From: Marinifilum sp.
GTDB taxonomy: Bacteria > UBA9089 > CG2-30-40-21
Reading direction: 5' to 3'
DNA: 41,043 bases
NCBI GenBank assembly: GCA_020717845.1
Contig: DYDG01000013.1
Location: 1-41,043, forward strand
How positions within the stretch are numbered: the first letter of the stretch is position 1; each line of letters begins with the position of its first letter. The notes under the pieces were generated by a model, which saw only the letters and a list, made by a program, of their open reading frames with translations, had not been told where the DNA came from and searched no databases. This document shows positions 145-33,624 of the stretch, piece by piece. The position numbers and the translations under genes are program-made.

Positions 145-2799
145 TTAAACTTGTGATTTCAGTACTGCCTGAGCTGCAGCAAGCCTGGCAATAGGCACGC
201 GATATGGAGAGCAGCTGACATAGTTCAAGCCAATCATATGGCAGAACTCGATAGAGCTTGGGTTGCCGCCATGTTCGCCGCATATTCCTACCTTGAGATC
301 AGGCTTTACTGATCGTCCCTTTTCTGTGCCCATCTTTACTAATGCTCCAACACCGTCTCTATCCAAAACCTCGAACGGGTTCTTTTCTAAGAGACCTGTT
401 TCTACATACCTGTCAAGGAATTTGCCCTCAGCATCATCCCTGGAGAAGCCAAAGGTAGTCTGAGTCAGATCATTTGTGCCAAAGGAGAAGAATTGTGCCT
501 CCTGAGCTATCTTGTCGGCAGTAACAGCTGCCCTTGGCAGCTCAATCATTGTCCCTATCAGATAGTCAACCCTGATCCCTTTTTCTGTAAACACCTCTTC
601 GGCTGTTTTTTGAATCAATTCCTTTTGCACCTTAAGCTCTGCGACGGTGCTAACCAATGGCACCATTATCTCGGGGAATACCTTAATTCCTTCCTTTGTC
701 AGGTTACAGGCAGCCTGGATGATTGCCCTTGCCTGCATCTCAGTGATCTCAGGATAGGATATTCCCAGACGGCACCCTCTTAAGCCAAGCATAGGGTTTA
801 ATTCCCGCAGGTTTTCAACCTTATGGAGTAATTTTTTCTTATCAGCAATCTCTTTTTTATCTCCACCAGTTATCTCAAGCCTGGTTACCTCTACCAAAAG
901 CTCTTCATGGCTTGGCAAGAATTCATGAAGCGGCGGGTCAAGCAGTCTGATGGTAACCGGTAATCCTTCCATAGCCTTCAGCATCTCATAGAAATCGCCT
1001 CGTTGCATTGGCAGGAGCTTATCCAGAGCCTTTCTTCTTTCCTGTTCATTTTCAGCCAGGATCATCTCCTGCATGATAGGCAATCTATCCTCAGCAAAGA
1101 ACATATGTTCTGTTCGGCATAAACCTATCCCCTCAGCACCAAACTCCCGTGCCTTTTTAGAGGCTGCAGGGTCATCTGCGTTTGCTCTGATCTTGAGCTT
1201 GCGAATCTCATCTGCCCAGCCAAGCAATTTTATCCCTTCTGGGGTCATCTCAGCCTCAATGGTTGGTGCCTCACCCAGGATAACCTTGCCGCTTGAGCCA
1301 TCAATGGTGATAATATCTCCCTCAGAGATAACCTGGTCGCCAACTGTGAATCGTTTATTGGCTTCATCCACCTTTATTGCCTCACATCCGGCTACACAGG
1401 ACTTACCCATACCCCGAGCTACAACCGCAGCATGAGAGGTCATACCGCCATGAGCAGTTAATATCCCCTTAGCAACAGCCATACCATGGATATCATCTGG
1501 TGATGTTTCCTTCCTGACCAGAAGAACCTTTTTCCCCTGCTCTACCCAGCTACAGGCATCATCAGCAGAAAAGACAACTGCCCCTGAGACTGCCCCTGGC
1601 GAGGCATTCAGCCCGGTAGCCATTACCTCTATCTTTGCCTTTGGATCAATATGCGGGTGAAGAAGCTGGTCAAGCTGAGCCGGGTCTACCCTTAACAGTG
1701 CCTGTTCTCTGGTAATTAATCCCTCTTCAACCATATCAGCAGCTACCTTTATGGCTGCTGCTGCTGTTCTCTTTCCTGTTCGAGTCTGAAGCATGTATAG
1801 CCTTTGATTCTCAATAGTAAACTCAATATCCTGCATCTCTTTATAGTGTTTTTCAAGGGTATTATAGATATCTGTCAATTGAGCATATGCCTCTGGCATC
1901 TCATCCTTAAGATAGGCAATTGGTCTTGGTGTTCGGATACCAGCCACGACATCCTCGCCCTGAGCATTGGTCAGGTATTCGCCGTAAAATATCTTTTCAC
2001 CTGTAGAGGGATTACGGGTAAAGGCAACGCCTGTGGCACAGGTATCGCCCATGTTGCCAAAGACCATGGTCTGGACATTAACAGCTGTCCCCAGATCATC
2101 CGGAATATCATACAGCTTGCGATAGGTTACAGCTCGCGGGCTATCCCATGATTCAAAGACCGCATCAATAGCCATCTTTAACTGTTGTTTTGGATCTTGT
2201 GGAAAATCAATCCGTTCTACCTCACGAAGCATCCGAAGATAGCGGGCAACCACATTTCTCAATGCCTCTGTTGAAAGCTCATTATCTAATTTCACACCTT
2301 CATCATGCTTTACCTCATCAAGAATGAACTCAAAATCACTGTGCTTTATTCCAAGAACCACATTGGAAAACATCTGGATAAACCTGCGATAGGCATCATA
2401 AGCAAACCTTTCGTTGCCTGTCTTAGCAGCCAGTCCCTTTACTGTTTCGTTGTTTAATCCAAGATTAAGAACCGTATCCATCATTCCGGGCATAGAAATC
2501 TTTGCCCCAGAACGTACAGAAACTAAGAGAGGATCATGGTGATCACCAAGCTTTTTACCCATAAGTTTTTCCAGAGCATCAAGGTTTTGGTCCATCTGTT
2601 CCTGAAGCCCCTCTGGATATTGCTTATTATTTTTATAATAATAAATACATGCCTCCGTAATAATCGTAAACCCTGGTGGAACAGGGATATTGATATTGGT
2701 CATCTCTGCCAATCCTGCACCCTTGCCACCTAACGTATCTTTCATTGTTCCTGTGCCTTCTGCCTTGCCATTGCCAAAAAAATACACCAATTTGCTCAT
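145..2799 (-). CDS. ppdK: Pyruvate, phosphate dikinase
   Basis: Interconverts pyruvate, ATP and phosphate with PEP, AMP and pyrophosphate in the cytosol. The 884-residue length is typical of the bacterial enzyme. The N-terminal nucleotide-binding domain includes SVRSGAKISMPGMMDT near 94-109. The swivelling phosphohistidine domain has GGMTSHAAVVARG with the phosphorylated His at 456. The C-terminal PEP-binding barrel has GLCRTEHMFF, and the catalytic Cys lies in GICGEHGGNP near the C-terminus. The start is supported by AAGGAGG about 9 nt upstream. The nearest gene upstream on this strand ends 66 nt away, so ppdK may have its own weak promoter. In a PTS-using organism it can regenerate PEP or work glycolytically with pyrophosphate; the direction cannot be told from sequence. 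Confidence 0.97.
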   Translation of the reverse strand: MSKLVYFFGNGKAEGTGTMKDTLGGKGAGLAEMTNINIPVPPGFTIITEACIYYYKNNKQYPEGLQEQMDQNLDALEKLMGKKLGDHHDPLLVSVRSGAKISMPGMMDTVLNLGLNNETVKGLAAKTGNERFAYDAYRRFIQMFSNVVLGIKHSDFEFILDEVKHDEGVKLDNELSTEALRNVVARYLRMLREVERIDFPQDPKQQLKMAIDAVFESWDSPRAVTYRKLYDIPDDLGTAVNVQTMVFGNMGDTCATGVAFTRNPSTGEKIFYGEYLTNAQGEDVVAGIRTPRPIAYLKDEMPEAYAQLTDIYNTLEKHYKEMQDIEFTIENQRLYMLQTRTGKRTAAAAIKVAADMVEEGLITREQALLRVDPAQLDQLLHPHIDPKAKIEVMATGLNASPGAVSGAVVFSADDACSWVEQGKKVLLVRKETSPDDIHGMAVAKGILTAHGGMTSHAAVVARGMGKSCVAGCEAIKVDEANKRFTVGDQVISEGDIITIDGSSGKVILGEAPTIEAEMTPEGIKLLGWADEIRKLKIRANADDPAASKKAREFGAEGIGLCRTEHMFFAEDRLPIMQEMILAENEQERRKALDKLLPMQRGDFYEMLKAMEGLPVTIRLLDPPLHEFLPSHEELLVEVTRLEITGGDKKEIADKKKLLHKVENLRELNPMLGLRGCRLGISYPEITEMQARAIIQAACNLTKEGIKVFPEIMVPLVSTVAELKVQKELIQKTAEEVFTEKGIRVDYLIGTMIELPRAAVTADKIAQEAQFFSFGTNDLTQTTFGFSRDDAEGKFLDRYVETGLLEKNPFEVLDRDGVGALVKMGTEKGRSVKPDLKVGICGEHGGNPSSIEFCHMIGLNYVSCSPYRVPIARLAAAQAVLKSQV

Positions 2800-5041: not shown

Positions 5042-5632
5042 CTATATTTTTTCCATAAATTCGACCATTTTAACGTCTTTAACATCAACCATTATTGAGC
5101 TGACTCCAGTTAGTGGAATCTGTTTTTCATCACTAAGCCATGAAGCTTGCTCAAGGACAAAATGCCCTTTTTCTGGATCAGATGGCCATTCTTTTGGCCA
5201 ACCATAAAGCCGTCTTTCACCATCTAAATGTAACACAACATAAGTTACATTTTCTAAAAACATCCCAAACCATTCAGAAGGGTATGATGTTTCTCTTGTA
5301 ATACCCCAGTCCCGCAGTTTTTTATGAACCTTGTCATTATTGGCATAGTATGAAAAAATTATGCCTAATAGTATTGCCAAAATTATAGACCAAATTAAGT
5401 CAGACTGTAAGTTCCAATTAAATAAAGACCACTTGCTTCCAATAAAAAAGAGTAATACTTTAATAAGATATACAAACACCTGAACAAAGATTGTGAAAAT
5501 AAGAGCTTGTATAACTCTCTCAAATTGAGATGGCTTGGGGAATGAGGTGAAGTTATAAAAGACCCAAGCTGCTACAAAACCTGGCAACAAATATTGAAGC
5601 AATGTCACAAAATCCTTTGCAAATGTTTCCAT
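5042..5632 (-). CDS. DUF6338-like membrane protein
   Basis: A 196-residue protein. Its N-terminus (FVTLLQYLLPGFVAAWVFY) and general layout resemble the DUF6338 family, which has no assigned function. Membrane segments are likely at about 10-28, 40-65 and 77-97; the rest is a soluble cytoplasmic domain of about 95 residues with WFGMFLENVTYVVLHLDGERRLYGWPKEWPSDPEKGHF, typical of the family. A clear promoter lies upstream (5668-5697). The 38-codon proline-rich gene overlaps its stop region. Family assignment is from memory of the motif and not from a search. Confidence 0.6.
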   Translation of the reverse strand: METFAKDFVTLLQYLLPGFVAAWVFYNFTSFPKPSQFERVIQALIFTIFVQVFVYLIKVLLFFIGSKWSLFNWNLQSDLIWSIILAILLGIIFSYYANNDKVHKKLRDWGITRETSYPSEWFGMFLENVTYVVLHLDGERRLYGWPKEWPSDPEKGHFVLEQASWLSDEKQIPLTGVSSIMVDVKDVKMVEFMEKI

Positions 5633-5772: not shown

Positions 5773-8700
5773 CTATTTTTTTGCTATAAGCCGTTTTCTA
5801 CCCTCTTCAATAAAGAAGATAGCAATCATAAAGACAAACAAGATGCCCCAATCAGCAAGACTGAGTGGAACAGTATTGAATATCTTCTGGAAAAAAGGGA
5901 TATAAACCAATGCTGCGATAAATACAAGTTCAAAGGAAATACCCCAGATAATGAGCTTATTACTGAACAACCCTTTTGCAAATACAGACTTAAACTCTGT
6001 TCTGCAGGCAAACACATTAGCAATCTGCATTACCACAATGCCAGCAAAGATCATGGTCATGGCATGCAGGTGTAATGGATTAGTAAACGATGTATCATCT
6101 GGCTCAAGTTGCATTCCTGGCGACCATCCTCCCTTAAACAGTACCCAGAAATAAGCAGCCAGAACAGCGATCGTGCTCAATGTCCCAAGAAAGAAGTATC
6201 CTCTAAAGAGTACTGAGGAATCAACAAGCCCTTTGTTTTTTGGTCTTGGTGGCTTATCCATCAGCCCTTCCTCTATTTTTTCAGTCCCGAGTGCAATCGC
6301 TGGCAGGGTCTCAGTGCCAAGGTCAATGGCAAGTATCTGTAATGCTGTAATTGGAAATGGTATTTTGAATACGGCGAATAGACAAAATGGGATAATCTCA
6401 GGGACAAGGTGGGCAAAGATATAGATCATAAACTTGCGGATATTATCAAATACAGCTCGTCCTTCTTCAATGCCAGCAACAATACTGGCAAAGTTATCAT
6501 CAGTCAAGATCATATCAGCTGCATCTCTGGCCACATCAGTGCCGCGGACACCCATGGCTATGCCAATATCAGCCCGTTTGAGTGCTGGGGCATCATTGAC
6601 CCCATCACCAGTAACAGCAACGATATGCCCTATTTCTTTGAATGCATTGACAATCCTGAACTTATGTTCAGGATTGATGCGAGCAAAAACAACCTCATCC
6701 TTGAGCAATCTCTGCAGTTCTTCATCAGACATGGTTGTCAACGCTGTGCCATTGACAACCTTAGCATCCTGAGATTGGACAATGCCCACCTGACGAGCAA
6801 TAGATAGGGCAGTAATCTCATAATCGCCAGTAATCATAACTATCCGAATACCAGCTTTCTTGCAGAGTGCAATTGCATCTGCTACCTCAGGACGTGGTGG
6901 ATCATGCATGGCTGCAAGCCCGACAAAGGTAAGATTGCATTCAACCTGTTCAGCGGTTTCGTCAATGGCTTCCAGATGGACATAATTCCGATATGACAGA
7001 GCAAGAACACGGAGGCCATCTTCAGCAAACGTATTTAGTGATGACATAATCTGATTACGTTCATCATCAGAGAGCGGTATGATTTTGTCTCCATGGACAA
7101 TGGATGTTGACAAGTTAAGCACCTCGCATGGTGATCCCTTGACAAAGACACGCACCTTGTCAGGGCTGATCTGGTGTAGAGAGCTCATTCGTTTACGGAC
7201 AGACTCAAATGGAAATCGCTTGATTAACGGAAACATTTCTCTGAGCTTATCAATATCAAGACCTGCTTTTACAGCAAAACTGAGCAATGCCCCTTCGGTT
7301 GGATCGCCCAACACATTCCAGTATTTTCTATCCTTTTTCTCTGGAGCAAGTAATCTGGCAGTGCTACACAGCACACCGATGGTAGAAAAAAGATGCAGAT
7401 TGTCTGCATCAAATTCATTTGGAGAAACTGTTTTGCCATTTAAAGAAAAATTACCTGATGGTTCGTAACCGCTGCCTGATACCTCTATGATTTTCCCATT
7501 AAGCCATAGCTTTTTTACACAGACCTGACTGGTTGTAAGAGTTCCTGTCTTGTCTGTGCAGATAACATCTGTTGAGCCGAGTGTTTCTATGGATGAGAGT
7601 TTTTTGACTAAGACATGCCTTCGCGACATTCTCTGGACTGCCACGGCAAGCGACAGGGTAACGGTTGGCATCAGTCCTTCGGGTACATTGCCAAGGATAA
7701 TGCCAATGGCAAACAGTGATGCTGCTGTAAAGGAAAGCTTGGCAACAAGTGTGCCCAGGACAAAAAATATTAATCCAAGGCTGACAGCAATGACAGCGAT
7801 GATTTTTGTTAGGCGGTCAATCTCTTTTTGAAGCGGGCTTGGCTCTTCCTTGACTGATTGTGTTAGCCTGGCAATCTTGCCAAGCTCTGTAGCCATACCT
7901 GTGGCAATGATCACAGCTTTGCCTGTCCCTGAAACAACACTGGTTCCAGCAAACACAAGGTTGGGTATCTCGGTCCAGACAAATTCTTCGATAAGATTAA
8001 ACACTTCAGACATTTTGTAACCTGGCCGTGATTCACCAGAGAAGATACTGTTGTCAACCCGAAGCTCATGCGATTCAATAAGACGAGCATCAGCCGGTAT
8101 GTTGTCGCCCTCTTCAAAGAGAACAATATCACCAGGGACAATCTCATTGCTTGAGATTATATGTTCTTTGCCATCGCGAAGGATGCGGGTTTGCCGCGGC
8201 ATGAGCACAGAAAGCGACTCGATAGCCCTTTCTGCCTTGAATTCCTGCCAGAAACTAAATATAGCGTTCAATATAATGACAACAATAATTGTCCAGCCTA
8301 CCTCTTTCATCCCAATAAAAAATGCAAGCATGCTTCCTGCCCACATTAAGAGAGCCAGAAGGTTGGTGAAATTGTAAAGAAACTTGCATATGAGTGGTGT
8401 CCTTTTCTTTTTACTGATCTCATTTGGGCCATAGTCTTCAAGCCTCTCTCTGGCATCATCGGTAGAGAGTCCATTATCCCCTGTATCCAACTCTTGATAG
8501 ATCTCTTCACGCGATAATGACAAAAACTCTTCCCGTTCTTTCCGTTCTTTCTGCTGAGCTTTAAGCAATCTCAATAACTTCTCATCGCTTTCAGCTGAGA
8601 TTATCCTATCTATCAATATCTTATTCCGTGCAAGCAAGCTGAGTCTGGATAATATCTTAAGATGTGTTCCTGTTTCCGAGAGTGGGGTGATGAAGAGGAA

Positions 8701-9000
8701 AAAAAGATGCACAGGCTTATTGTCTGGGGCATTAGAATTAATCCCTTTGCTTGATACACCTACAAAAAAGAGCACCTCATCCAGTCCCTCGATTCGTGCG
8801 TGAGGGATGGCTATACCATTACCAATTGCAGTAGAGGCAACCTGTTCACGATTAATGATTGAGGCTGCAATTGCCTCAGGGTGTTTGAGATGCTTTTGCT
8901 TATGGAGCATAGCAACCATTTCTTCCAATACAGCATCCATGGATGTTGATTGCAGATGAACGGTTACTAATCCTTGCTTAAGAAAGGAAGAGATTTGCAT
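5773..9000 (-). CDS. EIIA (PtsN-like) domain fused to type II P-type cation ATPase
   Basis: A 1075-residue fusion. Residues 1-150 form a PTS EIIA domain of the fructose/nitrogen class with the phosphorylatable His67 in GIAIPHARIEG. A charged linker (about 148-165) leads to a cation-ATPase N-terminal domain (about 160-205), then a full P-type ATPase: SGES (321-324), phosphorylated Asp483 in CTDKTGTLTT, hinge MVTGDGVNDAP-like GDGVNDAPALKRAD, and about ten membrane helices. M4 reads NVPEGL and M6 ILAIDLGTETLPAIALG, which resemble Na,K/H,K-ATPases (type IIC) more than SERCA pumps; the second M6 acid is Glu. It likely pumps a cation across the inner membrane, with activity tied to PTS phosphorylation. 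Transported ion unknown. Confidence 0.93.
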   Translation of the reverse strand: MQISSFLKQGLVTVHLQSTSMDAVLEEMVAMLHKQKHLKHPEAIAASIINREQVASTAIGNGIAIPHARIEGLDEVLFFVGVSSKGINSNAPDNKPVHLFFLFITPLSETGTHLKILSRLSLLARNKILIDRIISAESDEKLLRLLKAQQKERKEREEFLSLSREEIYQELDTGDNGLSTDDARERLEDYGPNEISKKKRTPLICKFLYNFTNLLALLMWAGSMLAFFIGMKEVGWTIIVVIILNAIFSFWQEFKAERAIESLSVLMPRQTRILRDGKEHIISSNEIVPGDIVLFEEGDNIPADARLIESHELRVDNSIFSGESRPGYKMSEVFNLIEEFVWTEIPNLVFAGTSVVSGTGKAVIIATGMATELGKIARLTQSVKEEPSPLQKEIDRLTKIIAVIAVSLGLIFFVLGTLVAKLSFTAASLFAIGIILGNVPEGLMPTVTLSLAVAVQRMSRRHVLVKKLSSIETLGSTDVICTDKTGTLTTSQVCVKKLWLNGKIIEVSGSGYEPSGNFSLNGKTVSPNEFDADNLHLFSTIGVLCSTARLLAPEKKDRKYWNVLGDPTEGALLSFAVKAGLDIDKLREMFPLIKRFPFESVRKRMSSLHQISPDKVRVFVKGSPCEVLNLSTSIVHGDKIIPLSDDERNQIMSSLNTFAEDGLRVLALSYRNYVHLEAIDETAEQVECNLTFVGLAAMHDPPRPEVADAIALCKKAGIRIVMITGDYEITALSIARQVGIVQSQDAKVVNGTALTTMSDEELQRLLKDEVVFARINPEHKFRIVNAFKEIGHIVAVTGDGVNDAPALKRADIGIAMGVRGTDVARDAADMILTDDNFASIVAGIEEGRAVFDNIRKFMIYIFAHLVPEIIPFCLFAVFKIPFPITALQILAIDLGTETLPAIALGTEKIEEGLMDKPPRPKNKGLVDSSVLFRGYFFLGTLSTIAVLAAYFWVLFKGGWSPGMQLEPDDTSFTNPLHLHAMTMIFAGIVVMQIANVFACRTEFKSVFAKGLFSNKLIIWGISFELVFIAALVYIPFFQKIFNTVPLSLADWGILFVFMIAIFFIEEGRKRLIAKK

Positions 9001-11984: not shown

Positions 11985-12377
11985 ATGATTGGGATTGTAG
12001 TAGCAACTCATGGCAGCATGGGAATCGAGCTTGTCAGGACTGCAGAATTGATTGTAGGAAAATGTGAAAAGATTGAGGCAGTTCCCTTTTTCCCTCATGA
12101 GTCTGGTGAGGAGCTTACTCAAAAGATTAAACAGGCAATAGCTAATGTAAATGACGGAGATGGTGTGGTGGTATTCGTTGATCTTATCGGCGGAAATTGC
12201 TGCACCATCTCTGGTGCATTTTTAAGGGATGAAAATGTAGAGGTTATATGCGGCGTTAATCTGCCTATGGTTATAAAGCTTGTCAATCATAGACATGAAG
12301 GGTTGAAGGATGTTGCTGCTGCTGTTCAGAAGGCAGGGGTCAAGAGTATTGTCAACCTGCGCGAACGGTTATTATAG
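11985..12377 (+). CDS. PTS EIIA component, mannose class
   Basis: A cytosolic phosphocarrier that takes phosphate from HPr and passes it to EIIB. 130 residues, the usual size of a free-standing EIIA-Man domain. The phosphorylated His9 lies in VVATHGSMG, and the FVDLIGGNC segment matches the family pattern D-L-x-G-x-S/N. First gene of the PTS operon; EIIB follows after 11 nt. The start follows an AAGAGGTG-type ribosome site. Confidence 0.93.
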   Translation: MIGIVVATHGSMGIELVRTAELIVGKCEKIEAVPFFPHESGEELTQKIKQAIANVNDGDGVVVFVDLIGGNCCTISGAFLRDENVEVICGVNLPMVIKLVNHRHEGLKDVAAAVQKAGVKSIVNLRERLL

Positions 12378-12388
12378 GATACCAGATT

Positions 12389-12853
12389 ATGAACATTGTT
12401 TTGTTTCGCATTGATGAAAGGTTTATTCATGGGCAGATAATTCAAGGGTGGAAGGGATTAGAGTATCAGCATATTGTTGTGATTAGCGACAGGATGGCTG
12501 GGGATGAGCTTGAAAAGCGGCTTCAACTTAGTGGCGTATTAGATAATGTTACGGCTTGCTTTTACAAGAGTAACCAAATGCCTGAAATGGCAATGGATCA
12601 GGCAAAAAATACAAAGCGAACCATTATCCTTGTTGGAAATGTTGAGGATGCCATTCTGGTAATACAGAGTGGCATCAGGGTGAATAAACTTAATCTTGGT
12701 GTTATGTCCCGGAATAGTTCCAGAACTCATGTAGTGAGTCCTGCAGTTTATGTTTCTCCTGAGGAGATGGAGTCATTGAAACAGATATCAATGATGGGAA
12801 TTGAGGTTGAGGCTCAGGGGGTGGAGAGGGATACGGCGGTGAGGTTGTTTTGA
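12389..12853 (+). CDS. PTS EIIB component, mannose/sorbose class
   Basis: A cytosolic phosphotransferase that phosphorylates the incoming sugar. 154 residues, typical length. The phosphorylated His14 is in RIDERFIHGQIIQGW, the signature of the mannose-fructose-sorbose family EIIB. It lies between EIIA (11 nt upstream) and EIIC (9 nt downstream) on the same strand. Confidence 0.95.
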   Translation: MNIVLFRIDERFIHGQIIQGWKGLEYQHIVVISDRMAGDELEKRLQLSGVLDNVTACFYKSNQMPEMAMDQAKNTKRTIILVGNVEDAILVIQSGIRVNKLNLGVMSRNSSRTHVVSPAVYVSPEEMESLKQISMMGIEVEAQGVERDTAVRLF

Positions 12854-12862
12854 GCCAGATGA

Positions 12863-13594
12863 GTGGCACAAATTTGGAGTAGTTTAATGTTATTATATGC
12901 CTTGATTGTCTCCATATGTTACAGCCTGATAAATCTGGATGCCACCGCCATAGCTCAGACCATGGTTTCCAGACCAATAGTTATTTCTCTATTAATTGGA
13001 AGTGTTTTGGGGTTATTGAATGGGGATGCTGCTTCTGGGGCAGGGATAGGCATAACCATAGGGGTATTCCTGGAATTTTTCTGGATTAATATTTCTTCGC
13101 TTGGGTCATCGGTTCCAGCGAATGCATCCATTAGCTCAGCCGTAGCCACAGCCGTGATTTGTTATCTTTCTAAAGGAGCACAGATAGAGCCATATTGGAT
13201 AACCAGCGGGCTTGTTTACGGGGTATGCTGTGGATATGCTGGCGGAAGGACAGATACATTACTCAGAGCCTTGAATGCCAGGCTGGTCAATAGGGCAACG
13301 CCTTTTGTTGAAAAGGGCGAACTAAATGCCATTAATAGGCTTAATTTGCAGGCTATTGGTGTATCGCTGGCAATCAACACCTTGCTTTGTTTTGTGTTAA
13401 TCATTGTGGGGATTAGTCTCTTGCCTGTCCTCCTGAAGTGTTTTCCGCAAGAGGTATTAGCAGCACTTAAAAATTCCTTGTGGCTGTTTTTATTGGTCTG
13501 TATGGGTATTGCCTTAGAGGCGTTTATGACAAAGAAGAGTGTATTTTATTTTGGGGCTGTGTGGGTGATTATAAGTCTTATAGGTCTTATATGA
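12863..13594 (+). CDS. PTS EIIC component, mannose class (permease)
   Basis: A membrane permease subunit that forms the sugar path together with EIID. 243 residues from the GTG at 12863; hydrophobic throughout with about 6-7 helices and the family-type stretch RPIVISLLIGSVLGLLNGD. An ATG at 12887 has a better ribosome site (GGAG, 7-nt spacing) and would remove eight residues, so the start is uncertain. Sugar specificity cannot be read directly; the downstream phosphomannose isomerase makes mannose or glucose plausible. Confidence 0.92.
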   Translation: MAQIWSSLMLLYALIVSICYSLINLDATAIAQTMVSRPIVISLLIGSVLGLLNGDAASGAGIGITIGVFLEFFWINISSLGSSVPANASISSAVATAVICYLSKGAQIEPYWITSGLVYGVCCGYAGGRTDTLLRALNARLVNRATPFVEKGELNAINRLNLQAIGVSLAINTLLCFVLIIVGISLLPVLLKCFPQEVLAALKNSLWLFLLVCMGIALEAFMTKKSVFYFGAVWVIISLIGLI

Positions 13595-13615
13595 CCTATA
13601 ACATGAGGTAAATCC

Positions 13616-14386
13616 ATGCTTGGACAAATATTCTGGAGATCCTTATTCATTCAATGCGTCCTGAATTTTGACAAAATGCAGAATACAGGTTTTGCTACAG
13701 CTATGATGCCTGTTATAAAAAGGCTGTTTCCACAGGGAGAAGAACAGAAAAAGGCATTATTACGGCATTTTGAACATTTTAACACTCAACCCTATGTAGC
13801 AAGTATCATTATGGGAATGATTGCGGCTAAGGAAAAAGAATATGCCTCTTCAGGAGATACGAAAATACTTGATGATATATCCAGATTAAAGGAGCAAACA
13901 GCCAGAGCCTTTGCCGCCTTAGGTGATATGTTTTTTTGGGGGACATGGAGACCGTTTATCTCTCTGTTGGGAATAGTGATTGTTTATTCAGGGATTATTC
14001 TGAAAGAAACATGGTTGATGGGGGCAGGAGCAGCTGTTTTTTTAATCGTGTATAATCTAATCCCATTAATGGTTAGATGGTATGGGCTGCGATTGGGTTA
14101 TGAAAAGCAAGAAGGGGCGATTGAGATTATTCTTAAGGCTAAGCCTGTGATTCAAAAGACAATCTGGTGGATACAGTGTATCAGCTTGACAATACTTGCT
14201 TGTTTTGGGACATTTATATCATCTAAAACGATTGCAACCCTTGGTGGTCAGGGCAATCTGATCTCGTCTCTTTTATCTGGGGCAATAGTCCTTTGGGTAG
14301 CAGTAACACTCAGGCGTATTTCAATATCCAAGGTTGTGATATTGATTATCCTTATCTCTGCTGTTCAAGCATATGTTTTTAAGTAA
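13616..14386 (+). CDS. PTS EIID component, mannose class
   Basis: The EIID subunit found only in the mannose family. 256 residues. The N-terminal FWRSLFIQCVLNFDKMQNTGFATAMMP is the family signature, followed by GDTKILDDISRLKEQTARAFAALGDMFFWGTWRP. The C-terminal half has several membrane helices. It is shorter than E. coli ManZ (about 280) but within range. Starts 21 nt after EIIC. Confidence 0.95.
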   Translation: MLGQIFWRSLFIQCVLNFDKMQNTGFATAMMPVIKRLFPQGEEQKKALLRHFEHFNTQPYVASIIMGMIAAKEKEYASSGDTKILDDISRLKEQTARAFAALGDMFFWGTWRPFISLLGIVIVYSGIILKETWLMGAGAAVFLIVYNLIPLMVRWYGLRLGYEKQEGAIEIILKAKPVIQKTIWWIQCISLTILACFGTFISSKTIATLGGQGNLISSLLSGAIVLWVAVTLRRISISKVVILIILISAVQAYVFK

Positions 14387-14406
14387 CACAAGCATCCTGC
14401 TTGTGT
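14386..14406 (+). repeat. Intercistronic hairpin
   Basis: A perfect 9-bp stem (ACACAAGCA / TGCTTGTGT) with a 3-nt loop, beginning on the last base of the EIID stop. A shorter version (GCAAGCA tcc TGCTTGC) lies at 17641-17657. No T run follows; it may separate EII from HPr/EI expression by mRNA processing or partial termination. Confidence 0.7.
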
Positions 14407-14427
14407 CTTGTATAATAGGTGAAGAAG

Positions 14428-14709
14428 ATGCAATATTTGACAGAATCAGTAGTTATCCAGAATAAGCTTGGATTACATGCCCGGGCTGCCAGTGTTTTTG
14501 TGAACACTGCCTCCAAATTTGCATCAAAGATAGAGGTAGGGAAGAATGGTAATAATGATTTTGTGAATGGGAAGAGTATACTTGGGGTTCTATGTATGGC
14601 TGTTTCTCCAGGCAGCAAGATTGTTATCCGTGCTATGGGCAAGGATGCAGGGGCAGCTATGGTTGCCCTTATCGAATTAATAAATAATAAGTTTGGAGAA
14701 AATGAATGA
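14428..14709 (+). CDS. ptsH: Phosphocarrier protein HPr
   Basis: Carries phosphate from EI to EIIA proteins. 93 residues from the ATG at 14428, chosen over a GTG at 14419 because GGTGAAGAAG makes the better ribosome site. The active His17 is in NKLGLHARAAS. Ser50 in NGKSILGV aligns with the regulatory serine of Gram-positive HPr, but no HPr kinase gene is in the window. The stop overlaps the EI start by 4 nt, indicating translational coupling. Confidence 0.95.
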   Translation: MQYLTESVVIQNKLGLHARAASVFVNTASKFASKIEVGKNGNNDFVNGKSILGVLCMAVSPGSKIVIRAMGKDAGAAMVALIELINNKFGENE

Positions 14710-16451
14710 TTACTCTCACTGGAATCCCTGCTTCTCCTGGAATTATCATTGGCAAGGCATTTCTCTTTGACATAGGAAGATTTCATGTTGAGAAGAGAAA
14801 GATAGAATCTACCAAGATAGAGGTTGAGGTGCAACTTTTTAAGGAGGCAATTCTAAAGACCAGAAAAGAGATAGAAAAAATAGAGGAAAAGGTTCAACAA
14901 AATATAGGTGCAGATATTGCCAAGATATTTAGTGCCCATCTGGCAATGCTGGAGGATCCCATTCTGGTTCTTGATGTAGCTCAAAAGATAAGGGAGGAAT
15001 CGGTATGTGCTGAATATGCTCTGGAATGTGTGCTTAAAAATATAGCAGATAATTTTGCTATCATGGAAGATGAATACTTCCGTGAAAGGGTGGTGGATGT
15101 TTTTGATATTGGTCGCAGAATCCTTCAAAATCTTAAGGGTGTTGACAGGGTAAGTGTGGAGGATCTGACAGAAAAGGTTATTATTATTGCCCATGAATTG
15201 TCGCCATCAGATACAGCTCATATGCATGATAGTAATGTGATCGGTTTTGTCACAGAGATAGGGGGAAAGACCTCTCATGCAGCTATTATGGCCAGGGCAT
15301 TAGAAATTCCGGCTGTAGTTGGGCTTAAAGAGATAACCTATCAGGTGAGAAATGACGAGACCATTATCATCGATGGCAGTCATGGCATAGTTATTATTAA
15401 TCCGGATAAAGAGACAATTAAGAAGTATTCCCATAAACAGGAGGAATTTTCTGCCTTTAAGGAAGGGTTATCCTGTCTGCGTGACCTGCCAGCACAGACT
15501 GAGGATGGGTTCAGGGTTCTGCTTTCAGCAAATATTGGGACACCAGAAGAGATTGATGTCATTAAACGAGAAGGTGCCGAAGGAATTGGATTATATAGAA
15601 CAGAATACCTGTATCTTGAACGGACAGACCTTCCTACAGAAGAGGAACAATTTAGTGCTTATCAGACTGTTGTAACAAGGCTTAGCCCATGTCCAACAGT
15701 AATCAGGACCGTAGACCTGGGTGGTGATAAATTTCTTACCCATCTGGATTTGCCTATTGAGCCAAATCCGTTTCTTGGGCTTCGGGCTATTCGACTCTGT
15801 CTTAAATATCCTGAGATATTTAAGACACAGATACGAGCAATTCTGCGGGCAAGTAATTATGGCAAGGTACAGATAATGTTTCCCCTTATCTCAGAGATTG
15901 ATGAGTTCCAGCAGGCAAAAACAATCCTGCTTTCTGTGATGGAGGAATTGGAGCAAGAAAAGATCCCTTTTGATCGTAACATTCAGATTGGCATAATGGT
16001 GGAAACCCCTTCTGCAGCTCTGATTGCAGATAGATTGGCTAAAGTGGTTGATTTTTTCAGCATAGGCACGAATGACCTGATTCAATATACGATGGCCATT
16101 GATAGAGTAAACGAAGAGGTATCTGCTCTATATAAACCGTTTCATCCAGCAATCCTTCGTTTGATCAAGATGACCATAGATGCTGCTCACAATGAAGGGA
16201 AATGGGTTGGGATGTGCGGTGAAATGGCTGGAGATCCTTCTTTTACAGTTCTTTTGCTGGGATTGGGATTGGACGAGTTTAGCATGTCAGGCGGCTCTAT
16301 TGCTAAAATTAAGAAAATAATTCGAGCTATACGACTGGATGAGGCAAAGGCTTTTGCTGATGGGATTATGCAGATAACCTCAGCGGCAGAGGTTCAAGAA
16401 GTGCTTGAGGAAATGATGACAAAAAGGTTTGGGAATATGTTGGATATGTAA
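14706..16451 (+). CDS. ptsI: PTS enzyme I (PEP-protein phosphotransferase)
   Basis: Starts the PTS phosphorelay by taking phosphate from PEP and handing it to HPr. 581 residues, the usual length. The active His191 is in GGKTSHAAIMARALEIP; the PEP-binding barrel has GAEGIGLYRTEYLY, LRAIRLCL, FFSIGTNDLIQYTMA and the catalytic Cys in GMCGEMAGDP. The whole PTS, general and sugar-specific, is thus one contiguous unit from 11985 to 16451. EI might also feed the EIIA domain of the ATPase fusion at 5773-9000 (inference). Confidence 0.97.
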   Translation: MITLTGIPASPGIIIGKAFLFDIGRFHVEKRKIESTKIEVEVQLFKEAILKTRKEIEKIEEKVQQNIGADIAKIFSAHLAMLEDPILVLDVAQKIREESVCAEYALECVLKNIADNFAIMEDEYFRERVVDVFDIGRRILQNLKGVDRVSVEDLTEKVIIIAHELSPSDTAHMHDSNVIGFVTEIGGKTSHAAIMARALEIPAVVGLKEITYQVRNDETIIIDGSHGIVIINPDKETIKKYSHKQEEFSAFKEGLSCLRDLPAQTEDGFRVLLSANIGTPEEIDVIKREGAEGIGLYRTEYLYLERTDLPTEEEQFSAYQTVVTRLSPCPTVIRTVDLGGDKFLTHLDLPIEPNPFLGLRAIRLCLKYPEIFKTQIRAILRASNYGKVQIMFPLISEIDEFQQAKTILLSVMEELEQEKIPFDRNIQIGIMVETPSAALIADRLAKVVDFFSIGTNDLIQYTMAIDRVNEEVSALYKPFHPAILRLIKMTIDAAHNEGKWVGMCGEMAGDPSFTVLLLGLGLDEFSMSGGSIAKIKKIIRAIRLDEAKAFADGIMQITSAAEVQEVLEEMMTKRFGNMLDM

Positions 16452-24944: not shown

Positions 24945-24993
24945 AATAGAAACTGTTTTTTGAAAAATGGTAATAAATGGGAGAATTTTACAT

Positions 24994-27405
24994 ATGGAAA
25001 CTTTACCATATTCTATTTATGTATGTAAACGGCCATTAAGAATAGTATTTCTTGTTGATCCGAATAATTCTAATTTTCAACAACTTGATGCAATTTTTAG
25101 GTATAACCATAGTAAATGGGGAGGACGCTTTAATCCAATCATTTTTACCGATGGTAAGACTATTGAAGAGAAATGGTGGAATTTTCTGCGTGATGTTGAT
25201 CCAGATGTTATCAAATCCATAGTTCCTCTTCAAGATGAGCTATTAAAGAAGATTGATACTTTTCTCTCGCCTTATTCGGTTGAAGTTTCTCATAGAGTTG
25301 ATGAGAATAGCTCAGATTATTATATCCATATCTCGGGTGAAGGCTTATCCATTCTTCCCACGCCAGACAATATTGCTAAAGTATCTCGAGCCTTTATGGG
25401 TAACTCGAAGCTCGTTCTCTTTGAGTTAGGTCAAACAGAAGATAAAATAGTAAACCAATTTATACACCGCAACTTTGGAACATATACGCAGACTCTTTAT
25501 ATTGACAGAGCCTTAGACAAGAATGAAAAGAAGATTTTTTCTATAATTAACAGGGAAAGCTTAGCAGTGGCGTTGACGGAACTAAGTACTTTTGAACGAT
25601 TTACTTACCCAATTCAGATATGTTCTCTGCCAAATACTTTTAGGGAAGTTAAGTCTGATAGAATGGGAGATATCTTTACTGTAGTTATAGGAGATACTCC
25701 TGAAGATGTAGTCTATTCATGGAATAGAACTTTGTTAATTCCTCGGTGGAAGCGGGCAGATATTAACCAGGTATGGCTTCCTACAGAAATAGTAAACGAT
25801 ACACAAATAGAGACTGCTTTAAAAAGATGGTTGCAAAGGGCGGCTGATCCCAATGGTACAACCAATAAAGAAATACAGTTTGTCAGTTTTAGCCTGAAAG
25901 AAGCTGAATTAGAAAAAATTGCTAATAGACTTACAAAAGACATTTGGCTGCACAAGACTGTTCGTGTCTTCACTGAACCGCAAATACCTGATTTTCAACC
26001 AAGCGACTCTTATCTGCGATTGAAAGAAAATATGGACTTGTACAGAGCGACAGGAAATGAGGAACATATTGTTTTAAGTGAGCCTAATGTCTTGGAAGGA
26101 GTCATGGGTGGTGAGCATTGGATGGCGGATACCTATATTCAGTTTAGACCTGAACGCTACATGAACTTTGTAGGAAAAGATTTCTGGTGGCAGTTCCCTC
26201 GAAGAAATCATTTGGCTCGTGCCATGTTTCGCAAACCCTCACGGATTGGTTCAGATGGCTTTCCTTCTGTTTTGATGAAGCGGGGTGAACCAACCTTGAG
26301 TATTAAATTATTAGATGACGAATCCGTTTTCCAAGCTTTAATTATTGGGGAAAACACTCCTGCGTATACTACAGATCCAAGAAGTAAATTTGCGTATCGA
26401 CCGTTCGATGATGTACAACGGTCTGATAAGGGTCGATACCTATCTGGCTTTTTGGACATATTCTCAGGCTTGTCATTTGCGTACCAGATACTTAAGGAGC
26501 GATACTGGCGACGTATGTTTAATATTTTATCGCACCAGAATCCTTCGAAGGATGAGAAGAAACAAGAATCGATTCTTAATAAGCTCAAAAAGGAGATGCG
26601 ATCATATGGGGCAGATTTTCAGGGAAAGCCAGAAGGATTAGAGTGGTTGTCGAAATATGTTTTACAACTTTCAAAAAAGGAGGCAGCTACTGGAAAAGAG
26701 TCGCCATTCAAAGGTTTTATTGAGGAAGCCAAAAAGGAATTAGAAGAATTTAATTCATCGATACAAGAGGATCAAAAATTTGAGTTTAACGAACAAGATG
26801 TAAAGGATGCATTATTTGATCTTATTGAATCAAACATCCTTCTTATGGGAATCCGCCCGCATTGTCTTCTATGTGGTTGTGTGAACTGGTATCATGTCAA
26901 CGAAGCACAACAGACTCTTCAGTGTAAAGGATGCGGATATAAGTATCCAGTACGTCCACAGGAAGAATGGTATTACAAGTTAAATAGCCTTGTGCAAATT
27001 GGTTGTGCTCAACACGGCTTAGTTCCTGTCGTTCTTGTGTTAGGACAACTTTTGCACGAATGCAGGTCTTCATTCATTATGACCACAAGCTGGGAGATTT
27101 TCGAGACAGGAAAAGATAAGCCATTTAGCGATATAGATATTGTTTGTATCCAAGACGGTAAGTTTATTATCGGAGAGATTAAGCAATCGATTGCTCTCTT
27201 TAAGAAGTCAGATTTTGAGAAAATGGCTGAAATTGCTGAGCTACTTAAACCAGATATCTTGCTCTTTTCTTCGTTGGATCCAAAACCTAATAGATCCGTG
27301 AATGATAATCTTGAAATCCTTAAAAAAAGGCTGGCTCCACTTGAAATAGAGGTAAGTTGGTATCAGTTACACTCATACATATTCGAAGCCTCACCAGTTC
27401 GATGA
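24994..27405 (+). CDS. Unknown large protein with zinc ribbon and PD-(D/E)XK-type nuclease motif
   Basis: 803 residues from the ATG at 24994 (GGGAG 10 nt upstream); an ATG at 24967 lacks a ribosome site. I do not recognise the family. Residues about 15-60 (RIVFLVDP, then KWGGRFNPIIFTDG) look like a Rossmann-type beta-alpha start. The middle 60-600 has no motif I know. A Cys4-type zinc ribbon follows: C624LLCGC and C644KGC647. The C-terminus has FSDIDIVCIQDGKFIIGEIKQS, with Asp715 and E728-I-K730 spaced as in PD-(D/E)XK nucleases, then KPDILLFSS. No membrane segment. It fills a 2.6-kb cassette alone. A DNA-targeting defence nuclease is a reasonable guess, not shown. Confidence 0.8.
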   Translation: METLPYSIYVCKRPLRIVFLVDPNNSNFQQLDAIFRYNHSKWGGRFNPIIFTDGKTIEEKWWNFLRDVDPDVIKSIVPLQDELLKKIDTFLSPYSVEVSHRVDENSSDYYIHISGEGLSILPTPDNIAKVSRAFMGNSKLVLFELGQTEDKIVNQFIHRNFGTYTQTLYIDRALDKNEKKIFSIINRESLAVALTELSTFERFTYPIQICSLPNTFREVKSDRMGDIFTVVIGDTPEDVVYSWNRTLLIPRWKRADINQVWLPTEIVNDTQIETALKRWLQRAADPNGTTNKEIQFVSFSLKEAELEKIANRLTKDIWLHKTVRVFTEPQIPDFQPSDSYLRLKENMDLYRATGNEEHIVLSEPNVLEGVMGGEHWMADTYIQFRPERYMNFVGKDFWWQFPRRNHLARAMFRKPSRIGSDGFPSVLMKRGEPTLSIKLLDDESVFQALIIGENTPAYTTDPRSKFAYRPFDDVQRSDKGRYLSGFLDIFSGLSFAYQILKERYWRRMFNILSHQNPSKDEKKQESILNKLKKEMRSYGADFQGKPEGLEWLSKYVLQLSKKEAATGKESPFKGFIEEAKKELEEFNSSIQEDQKFEFNEQDVKDALFDLIESNILLMGIRPHCLLCGCVNWYHVNEAQQTLQCKGCGYKYPVRPQEEWYYKLNSLVQIGCAQHGLVPVVLVLGQLLHECRSSFIMTTSWEIFETGKDKPFSDIDIVCIQDGKFIIGEIKQSIALFKKSDFEKMAEIAELLKPDILLFSSLDPKPNRSVNDNLEILKKRLAPLEIEVSWYQLHSYIFEASPVR

Positions 27406-31554: not shown

Positions 31555-33624
31555 CTATTTTATTGGACTCCACATATTAGCTATCTGGCAGACTATTCTC
31601 TTCCAGAGAAAAACAGACAAGATGCCAAGCAAGGTTATGGATGTGATGATCATTCCTGCATGTTCGACCAATCTATTTTTGTACTCAAATACAATCGTAT
31701 AATCCTTGCCCTTTGGTATAGTGAATTTTATCAATCCCAGATCGTCCATGATTAGCTTCAACGGTTTAGCGTTGATAGAGGCATGCCATAAGGGATAATG
31801 TGATATCTTCAAGATAGCTTCAGTATCATTTTTTGCATCCTGTATCCTGATTTCAATCCTATTTGGTTTATAGCTTATCACTTGAGATGAAACATTGCTA
31901 ACATCCAGCAGGGTAGGGGAGTATCCACTGACATCAAAGATAGAGAAAATATTGGATTGATCTGTCAGGGCAAAGAGTTTGGATTTTTTGAAAAACAAAA
32001 GGGCATTAGGTTCCTGGGATGTAACAACAATCGTTTTAATATTCAGACGGCAACAAATATTATATAGCTTCTCCTCTGTAAGTTCATCCTTGTATCTCAT
32101 TCCAAAGAGGGAATAATTCTTACAGCCTTCAGGCATCTGGGTTAATATCCTTTGCTTCTCTCCATGAATATAATAATTGCCTACAGGCAGACCAGCGGTG
32201 CATCCGATTACCTCTTTCCCAGTAAATATTGGGGACATTCCCCAGAGATGAGTATGGCATCCAGAATAGTTAAAATATTGAATTACAGGTGTTGTTGGCA
32301 GTATCCTGCCTTTTGGCCTCTCTCGCAATATTTGCCAGAGGTTATTCAGTTCAAACTCATTGGCTATATCCTTAAAATGGCAAACACGATAAGGACTTTT
32401 CTCTGGCAGGTCAGCAATCAGCGGATTAAAGATGGTGTAGAATATAATCCCCGCTATTATGCCAGACAAAGTTCTTTTCTTCCATAACATGTTTTGTGGT
32501 ATTAGCTCTGTTGATTCAATGCCTTGTCTCTCTTTGTTCGTCCAATTAATAATTGCCTCCAGCCCTATTCCAGAAACAAGAAGCACCGGATAGAAGAAGC
32601 TGTCATTCATCCTGAAGGCATCAAAGAATCCAATATCAAAACAATTAAACAGGATAAGATAATTGAAGATAATAAACAATAACATGGCTGGCACAAGACA
32701 GATTAGAGGCAGTCCTATTTTCTTTTGATGAAGAGAAGCATATCTGTATACCCAAATTATGGAAAGAGCATAAAGAATGAGATATGGGGAAAGTATCTCT
32801 GCCCACATCCCAAGATGTTGAAGAGAAAACGGCCACATAAACCCAATCTTAATACAAGAAGATTTGTGAAGCAGTGGTAATACCCAGAAGGCTGATGTCC
32901 CAATAGCAATAGAGAACACCCCAAACCCCTTTCGCAGGGAACGATGATTGAAGAGCCATACAAAAAATATGCCGAGTGTAGGCAAAAAACTGTGCATAGG
33001 ATGAGTAAGATATATCATGCCAAGCGTCAATCCAGTTAACACCACATCTCTCAGCCTTCCATGCTCCTGAAAGCATGCAATGGCAAAATAAATGGCTAAT
33101 GGGAAAAGTCCAATGGCTATTCGATTACTCAACATTCCGATTGCCATTCCGCCAATATCTGCCCCAAGAAACATGCTGTCCAATATAGCCACATGATAAA
33201 GCATCATAACCAGGACTGTGAAAAAGGTGCTTGTCCTGCTCAAGCCAAGCCTTTTATAGAGGAGAAAGGTTGATACACCTGGGAGAAAATAGGTGAAGAG
33301 GATAAGCAGAAAATAGATGTTCTCAACACTAAGAAGATGCAGGGTAATGGTATCAAGGAAAATACCAATAAAAAGAAAACCAGGCGGATAAAATTGCATG
33401 AATGGTATCCCTGCACTCCAGTAGGGATTCCATGTAAAGATATTCCCTATTTGCGGAATAGCGATATTAAGACTGTACCATAACGCAAAAAAGACACCTG
33501 GATTATCATCATGAATTACAGGATATTTCCAATCTATGCAGCCGAAGCCAAGATGATAAAAACCTATAGATAATGCCAGGATTAAAAGTAAAAAATCCAT
33601 TCTTTCTAATTTATTTGATTTCAT
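31555..33624 (-). CDS. Large GT-C-like integral membrane protein
   Basis: 689 residues. About eleven or twelve membrane helices in the first 430 residues, starting at about 10-28, and one near the C-terminus (about 655-675). An early acidic pair in the first outer loop (VIHDDNPG, about 37-44), as in GT-C glycosyltransferases that use lipid-linked sugars. The C-terminal soluble part (about 430-650) is beta-rich and ends in a membrane anchor, as in YfhO-like or 6-pyruvoyl-type envelope proteins. Probably transfers sugars on the outer side of the inner membrane; no precise family. Last gene of the minus-strand block, 23 nt after the methyltransferase gene. Confidence 0.8.
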   Translation of the reverse strand: MKSNKLERMDFLLLILALSIGFYHLGFGCIDWKYPVIHDDNPGVFFALWYSLNIAIPQIGNIFTWNPYWSAGIPFMQFYPPGFLFIGIFLDTITLHLLSVENIYFLLILFTYFLPGVSTFLLYKRLGLSRTSTFFTVLVMMLYHVAILDSMFLGADIGGMAIGMLSNRIAIGLFPLAIYFAIACFQEHGRLRDVVLTGLTLGMIYLTHPMHSFLPTLGIFFVWLFNHRSLRKGFGVFSIAIGTSAFWVLPLLHKSSCIKIGFMWPFSLQHLGMWAEILSPYLILYALSIIWVYRYASLHQKKIGLPLICLVPAMLLFIIFNYLILFNCFDIGFFDAFRMNDSFFYPVLLVSGIGLEAIINWTNKERQGIESTELIPQNMLWKKRTLSGIIAGIIFYTIFNPLIADLPEKSPYRVCHFKDIANEFELNNLWQILRERPKGRILPTTPVIQYFNYSGCHTHLWGMSPIFTGKEVIGCTAGLPVGNYYIHGEKQRILTQMPEGCKNYSLFGMRYKDELTEEKLYNICCRLNIKTIVVTSQEPNALLFFKKSKLFALTDQSNIFSIFDVSGYSPTLLDVSNVSSQVISYKPNRIEIRIQDAKNDTEAILKISHYPLWHASINAKPLKLIMDDLGLIKFTIPKGKDYTIVFEYKNRLVEHAGMIITSITLLGILSVFLWKRIVCQIANMWSPIK

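Follow-up and report, generated by a model that had tools for sequence, protein, structure and literature searches.

The window, by which we mean the whole stretch of 41,043 nucleotides that was analysed, contains a single open reading frame on its minus strand in which a PtsN-like EIIA domain is joined to a complete type II P-type ATPase. This arrangement had been predicted from the sequence, with no strand given, and is borne out by the following features of the gene and its product (coordinates in the window).

5773..9000, minus strand: EIIA-P-type ATPase fusion gene, 1075 aa (single ORF with ATG start; Pfam domains; fused homologues)
8560..8985, minus strand: PTS_EIIA_2 (PtsN-like) domain, residues 6-147 (Pfam E 1.6e-28; nearest solved structure PtsN, 1a6j, E 2.1e-18; pLDDT mostly 75-92)
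8848..8850, minus strand: Arg51, active-site arginine, aligned with the Arg of RE in PtsN
8800..8802, minus strand: His67, predicted phosphoryl acceptor (AIPHAR, in GIAIPHAR), aligned with the active His of PtsN
8662..8664, minus strand: His113, second active-site histidine (THLK; alignment)
8521..8550, minus strand: linker, residues 151-160 (residues 154-159 with pLDDT <50 between two confident domains)
5782..8523, minus strand: complete type II P-type ATPase, residues 160-1073 (Pfam; NCBIfam; best Foldseek match 8jbk)
7663..7695, minus strand: M4, LGNVPEGLMPT with Glu441, Gln in the Omnitrophota branch (alignment)
7552..7554, minus strand: Asp483 of DKTGTLT, catalytic phospho-Asp (motif present throughout the alignment)
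6295..6432, minus strand: M5-M6 cation-site region, YIFAHLVPE ... AIDLGTETLPA (alignment)

A gene for a DUF6338 membrane protein (5042-5632) lies directly downstream on the same strand.

All Pfam domains of the fused protein score above their curated cut-offs. The EIIA domain matches PF00359 (PTS_EIIA_2) with 99.9 bits against a gathering cut-off of 27, and it contains the phospho-histidine, partner arginine and second histidine of this family: Arg51, His67 and His113 align with the conserved arginine, the active histidine and the conserved histidine of E. coli PtsN (1a6j). The original prediction had numbered the active histidine correctly, and the two motifs that it quoted from the pump, NVPEGL and IDLGTETLPAIALG, are both found in the protein. 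The scores against the PtsN equivalog models stay below the cut-offs (TIGR01419, 71.2 versus 138.7; NF008145, 73.5 versus 221), and the domain is PtsN-like, not a PtsN equivalog. The ATPase part comprises Cation_ATPase_N (residues 162-225), E1-E2_ATPase (266-461), Cation_ATPase (543-634), Hydrolase (680-811) and Cation_ATPase_C (881-1071), in the order typical of type II P-type ATPases, together with the motifs DKTGT, GDGVND, T/SGES and PEGL; in the window's branch SGES takes the place of TGES. In an AlphaFold model two parts are predicted with confidence; between them, at residues 154-159, the pLDDT drops below 50 and the chain is predicted to form a short flexible linker. The placement of the EIIA domain relative to the pump in this model is not reliable (pTM 0.67).

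The pump part resembles most closely the α-subunits of the Na,K- and H,K-ATPases (type IIC), which provide its best NCBIfam, PDB-sequence and Foldseek matches and with which it has the M6 motif IDLGT and the M8 glutamine in common. The top ranks of the Foldseek search are occupied by E1 structures of Na+,K+-ATPase, the best being 8jbk (E1.3Na; E 2.7e-66, 34% identity). The best NCBIfam match, TIGR01106 (IIC), scores 633.9 bits, however, far below its cut-off of 946.1, and TIGR01522, the model of the PMR1-type Ca2+-ATPases, reaches 609.1 bits against an equivalog cut-off of 798.3. Relatives score alike, with the PMR1-type model slightly ahead in some of them. For the cation site we use the Na,K-ATPase numbering, the correspondence being given by the alignment. 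Glu327 (Glu441 in the fusion), Glu779 (Glu868) and Asp804 (Asp893) are kept, as is Gln923, whereas Ser775 is replaced by His864, Asn776 by Leu865, Asp808 by Glu897 and Asp926 by Asn995. Three of the six IIC ligand positions (E327/S775/N776/E779/D804/D808) are thus changed. The Na,K/H,K type that had been assigned to the pump holds with regard to the best-matching family but not to the family cut-off, to the distance from the PMR1 type or to the residues at 775, 776 and 808; the label 'Na,K-ATPase' appears partly right and would be better softened to IIC-like type II pump.

Unfused bacterial IIC-like pumps, from Thermoanaerobacterium, Sporolactobacillus, Actinomycetota and Chloroflexota, are ~50% identical to the ATPase part of the fusion but have no EIIA domain. 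Those from Bacillota share its variant M5 AHLTPE and M6 GTE motifs, and the same His-Leu/Glu set occurs in some actinomycetotal pumps. Within the fused clade itself the site varies between AHLVPE/DLGTE and SNIPE/DLGTD, the SN and D being retained in L011, L123 and L132-L134, while VPQGL is found in the Omnitrophota branch. A comparison of one with two origins of the His-Leu/Glu site gave p 0.29 in the AU test. Because the M5 and M6 ligands are unlike those of Na,K-ATPase and differ among the fused proteins, the sequence does not reveal the transported ion, and an assignment from the M4-M6 residues was abandoned. Gastric H,K-ATPase carries a basic residue, Lys791, at the position corresponding to 775. 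By this analogy a basic residue at 775 would be in keeping with a pump that is electroneutral or exports protons, an idea that we regard only as a lead. The Omnitrophota branch (L005, L006, L007, L008, L009 and L030) has an unusual cation site, in which VPQGL in place of VPEGL at the central M4 ligand is combined with the M5 His-Leu and the M6 Glu.

The fusion is not confined to the window. A search for the domain pair in other genomes, which had been proposed as a check, revealed full-length fusions of the same domain order and length in 17 of them, giving 18 genomes with an intact fusion when the window's genome is included and each is counted once. Chance or misassembly is excluded by these copies. 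Omnitrophota, Planctomycetota and Fibrobacterota are represented among them, along with one or more other groups; a contig scan yielded full-length fused relatives, 41-88% identical, in MAGs whose labels are Fibrobacter, Omnitrophota, Phycisphaerae/Planctomycetota or Leptospirales, as well as in unnamed bacteria. Taxon names are those of the record titles, and L007, although labelled Phycisphaerae, branches with the Omnitrophota rows. Whole-genome searches found the fusion in three of the four genomes of the window's genus, in 5/285 of Omnitrophota (in one of the five the contig ends before the EIIA part is reached), in 4/294 of Planctomycetota (search cut-off 1e-200), in 3/167 of the phylum of the Fibrobacter MAG and in 2/9 of the phylum of the HOT.CON.50 MAG. 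One further fusion, in G008, breaks off within its EIIA domain close to the end of a contig and stands outside the 18. No earlier description was found in the open-access literature searched, in agreement with the original prediction, which knew of no characterised covalent fusion of this kind. The EIIA-ATPase architecture is real, is conserved and has apparently not been described before.

Two trees bear on the origin of the fusion. For the pump part, a tree was built from 115 ATPase domains without the EIIA columns, and all 18 fused rows fall inside one clade of 20 rows (SH-aLRT 99); the remaining two are L010, a contig-edge truncation, and L039, which has a diverged EIIA domain. In a tree of EIIA domains alone the fused ones likewise group together, with support of 94/91 and in 96% of bootstrap trees; the 24 further EIIA domains encoded by these genomes lie outside their clade, whose inner branching is similar to that of the ATPase tree. 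The presence of a single clade in both trees indicates that the fusion was probably one old event, and two or more independent EIIA-ATPase fusions are unsupported. The trees are read most simply as one fusion event whose product then spread vertically and perhaps also laterally; they were inferred without rooting, so that the direction of the event is our inference. The original prediction had named two separate genes in homologues as evidence against it; the relatives proved to be fused and to form one clade. A join without regulatory meaning, be it an accidental passenger fusion or an assembly or frameshift artefact, would agree with the unconserved gene order around the fused genes, but it is contradicted by the 18 intact independent sequences, their single clade in both trees, the low dN/dS of the EIIA domain and its intact active site, which make it very improbable as a passenger and rule out the artefact.

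The EIIA domain is under purifying selection, with pairwise dN/dS values of 0.09-0.18 compared to 0.06-0.14 for the ATPase part, and at the protein level it evolves faster than the ATPase. Arg51, His67 and His113 are kept in all intact fused proteins that were aligned. In eight relatives from Spirochaetota (L203-L210), the EIIA domain shows a graded divergence, with profile scores from 59 down to 5 bits; Arg51 is lost and His113 is lost in most, but each of them retains a His at position 67. The loss of Arg51 and usually of His113 suggests that the domain may have a phosphorylation-independent role in these bacteria.

A complete PTS is encoded within the window itself.

11985-12377, plus strand: mannose-family PTS EIIA (Pfam)
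12389-12853, plus strand: mannose-family PTS IIB (Pfam)
12863-13594, plus strand: mannose-family PTS IIC (Pfam)
13616-14386, plus strand: mannose-family PTS IID (Pfam)
14419..14709, plus strand: HPr, presumed phosphoryl donor, with the His of LGLHARA and the Ser of NGKSILGV (Pfam PTS-HPr; sequence; only HPr found in the assembly)
14706..16451, plus strand: Enzyme I (EI), with the active His of GGKTSHAAI (Pfam; sequence; only EI N-domain found in the assembly)

The EI/HPr pair that had been noticed about 5 kb from the fusion is thus present, and no second EI N-domain or HPr was found in the assembly, which is 94% complete. The two genes close a complete mannose-family sugar PTS operon (11985-16451) with the order EIIA, IIB, IIC, IID, HPr, EI. 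The location within this operon implies that the signal would include sugar flux, beyond the PEP/pyruvate balance alone. From the workings of the PTS, the fused EIIA would share the HPr~P pool with the sugar permease, and the flow of sugar should dephosphorylate it. Of the genomes with the fusion, 15/15 were found to encode EI and 20/20 to encode HPr, but HPr is also present in 275/288 Planctomycetota; the presence of EI and HPr is thus a prerequisite that does not discriminate, and it was dropped as special evidence. The assembly contains two EIIA_2 domains, the fused one and a free one of 184 aa. Each genome with the fusion encodes at least one EIIA_2 domain besides the fused one or, if the latter has decayed, a full one. 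The free PtsN-like EIIA of the window's genus (L096:1465-2013; L162) carries an insert of ~20 residues right behind the active-site IPHARSD. The window that holds the PTS operon and the fused pump also contains a gene similar to pyruvate phosphate dikinase, an enzyme of PEP/pyruvate interconversion (145-2799, minus strand), and two ORFs of 812 aa (24967-27405, plus strand) and 689 aa (31555-33624, minus strand) without a Pfam match.

To account for these observations, we favour, as a fairly likely reading based on analogy with LacS, a primary cation pump that carries its own PTS receiver and that would be switched through phosphorylation of His67 by HPr~P. The phosphoryl group of PEP would pass via EI and HPr, both encoded 5 kb away, to His67. 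With ample PEP and an idle mannose-family PTS the EIIA domain would be phosphorylated, whereas sugar inflow or a drop in PEP would leave it unphosphorylated. Tethered by its short linker at the start of the actuator-domain region, it could dock in one of its states onto the cytoplasmic domains and restrain the E1/E2 cycle, and phosphorylation would free the pump. The restraining state is most likely the unphosphorylated one; this sign is a guess by analogy with unphosphorylated PtsN, which inhibits the K+/H+ antiporter YcgO (PMC11808508), and with EIIA-Glc, which blocks the rotations of MalK that are required for ATP hydrolysis (PMC10710835). The exported ion would most likely be a monovalent cation, at a guess Na+ or H+, perhaps in exchange for K+. 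The building of ion gradients would thereby be tied to the carbon and energy status of the cell, and energy metabolism would probably control ion pumping directly through the fused EIIA domain.

Two other readings, each unlikely, have to be weighed against this one. The EIIA domain could be an ordinary end acceptor of the PTS, serving as phosphoryl sink or signalling to other proteins, for instance K+ transporters or sensor kinases, with the pump acting as a membrane anchor or ion sensor whose own transport is not controlled. The completely kept PtsN-type site is compatible with such a role, soluble PtsN of E. coli acts on TrkA, KdpD and YcgO (PMC13104625), and a further EIIA_2 domain, full where the fused one has decayed, accompanies every fusion. 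Nevertheless, the retained DKTGTLT and GDGVND motifs and the strong selection on the ATPase part point to a working pump, and despite the age of the clade, none of the intact genomes seen has lost the link between EIIA domain and pump. Equally improbable is that the EIIA fold has become an autoinhibitory or ligand-binding module that is no longer phosphorylated by HPr and exerts control through binding of a metabolite or protein. The strongly diverged domains kept by the eight Spirochaetota, without Arg51 and mostly without His113, and the faster evolution of the EIIA domain agree with this idea, but the three active-site residues kept in the window's lineage and in the other intact fused proteins, where aligned, are hard to explain without phosphorylation.

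Our preferred reading, a pump switched by HPr~P, has its closest parallel in LacS, the lactose/galactose transporter of streptococci and lactobacilli, in which an EIIA domain that HPr phosphorylates is likewise fused to a transporter; the fusion shares with LacS the defining presence of EIIA and transporter in one chain, and the fused pump as a target of HPr~P would be the counterpart that we infer. LacS, however, is a secondary sugar carrier with a C-terminal domain of the unrelated EIIA-Glc-like type, whereas the protein described here is a primary cation pump of the P-type and carries an EIIA_2 domain (fructose/Ntr) at its N-terminus. PtsN (EIIA-Ntr) of E. coli belongs to the same EIIA family and acts on K+ transport, but it is a separate soluble protein with targets other than P-type pumps, and in the fusion the link is covalent. 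EIIA-controlled transport would thus be extended to a new transporter class. A review from 2023 counts LacS as the sole bacterial transporter regulated via direct phosphorylation (PMC10710835); the fusion, if it functions as proposed, would add a second, of a quite different kind, and the first case of a primary ATP-driven pump. It would unite two uses of high-energy phosphate, PEP via the PTS and ATP via the P-type pump, in one polypeptide, and would provide a clean one-protein system for the long-debated control of cation balance by EIIA-Ntr, because the covalent link fixes the target of the EIIA domain. The chances are about even that this is the first P-type ATPase known to be under phosphohistidine control by a covalently attached PTS domain, with its rate set by PEP supply and sugar-PTS flux, and that such control is ancient and present in several little-studied phyla.

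The neighbourhood of the fused gene is not conserved among genomes and seldom includes PTS genes, and no conserved operon that could serve as a functional clue was found around the fused genes. Three single cases are suggestive. A gene for TrkH lies directly upstream in L007, where the fused gene begins 5 bases after it; in L009 a proton-pyrophosphatase gene adjoins the fused gene, and in L039 the gene of a cyclic-nucleotide-gated channel is nearby. In addition, two genomes with the EIIA-ATPase fusion encode an Na_H_Exchanger protein with an EIIA_2 domain (L170:16-1932 and L173:22-1947). Here the same EIIA family is attached to a cation transporter, but to the C-terminus of a secondary antiporter, in contrast to its N-terminal position on a primary pump. 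With its EIIA domain in a separate branch, this protein seemingly represents a parallel and independent fusion. Together with the TrkH and proton-pyrophosphatase genes, the two exchanger fusions support a role of the fused pump in the transport of monovalent cations.
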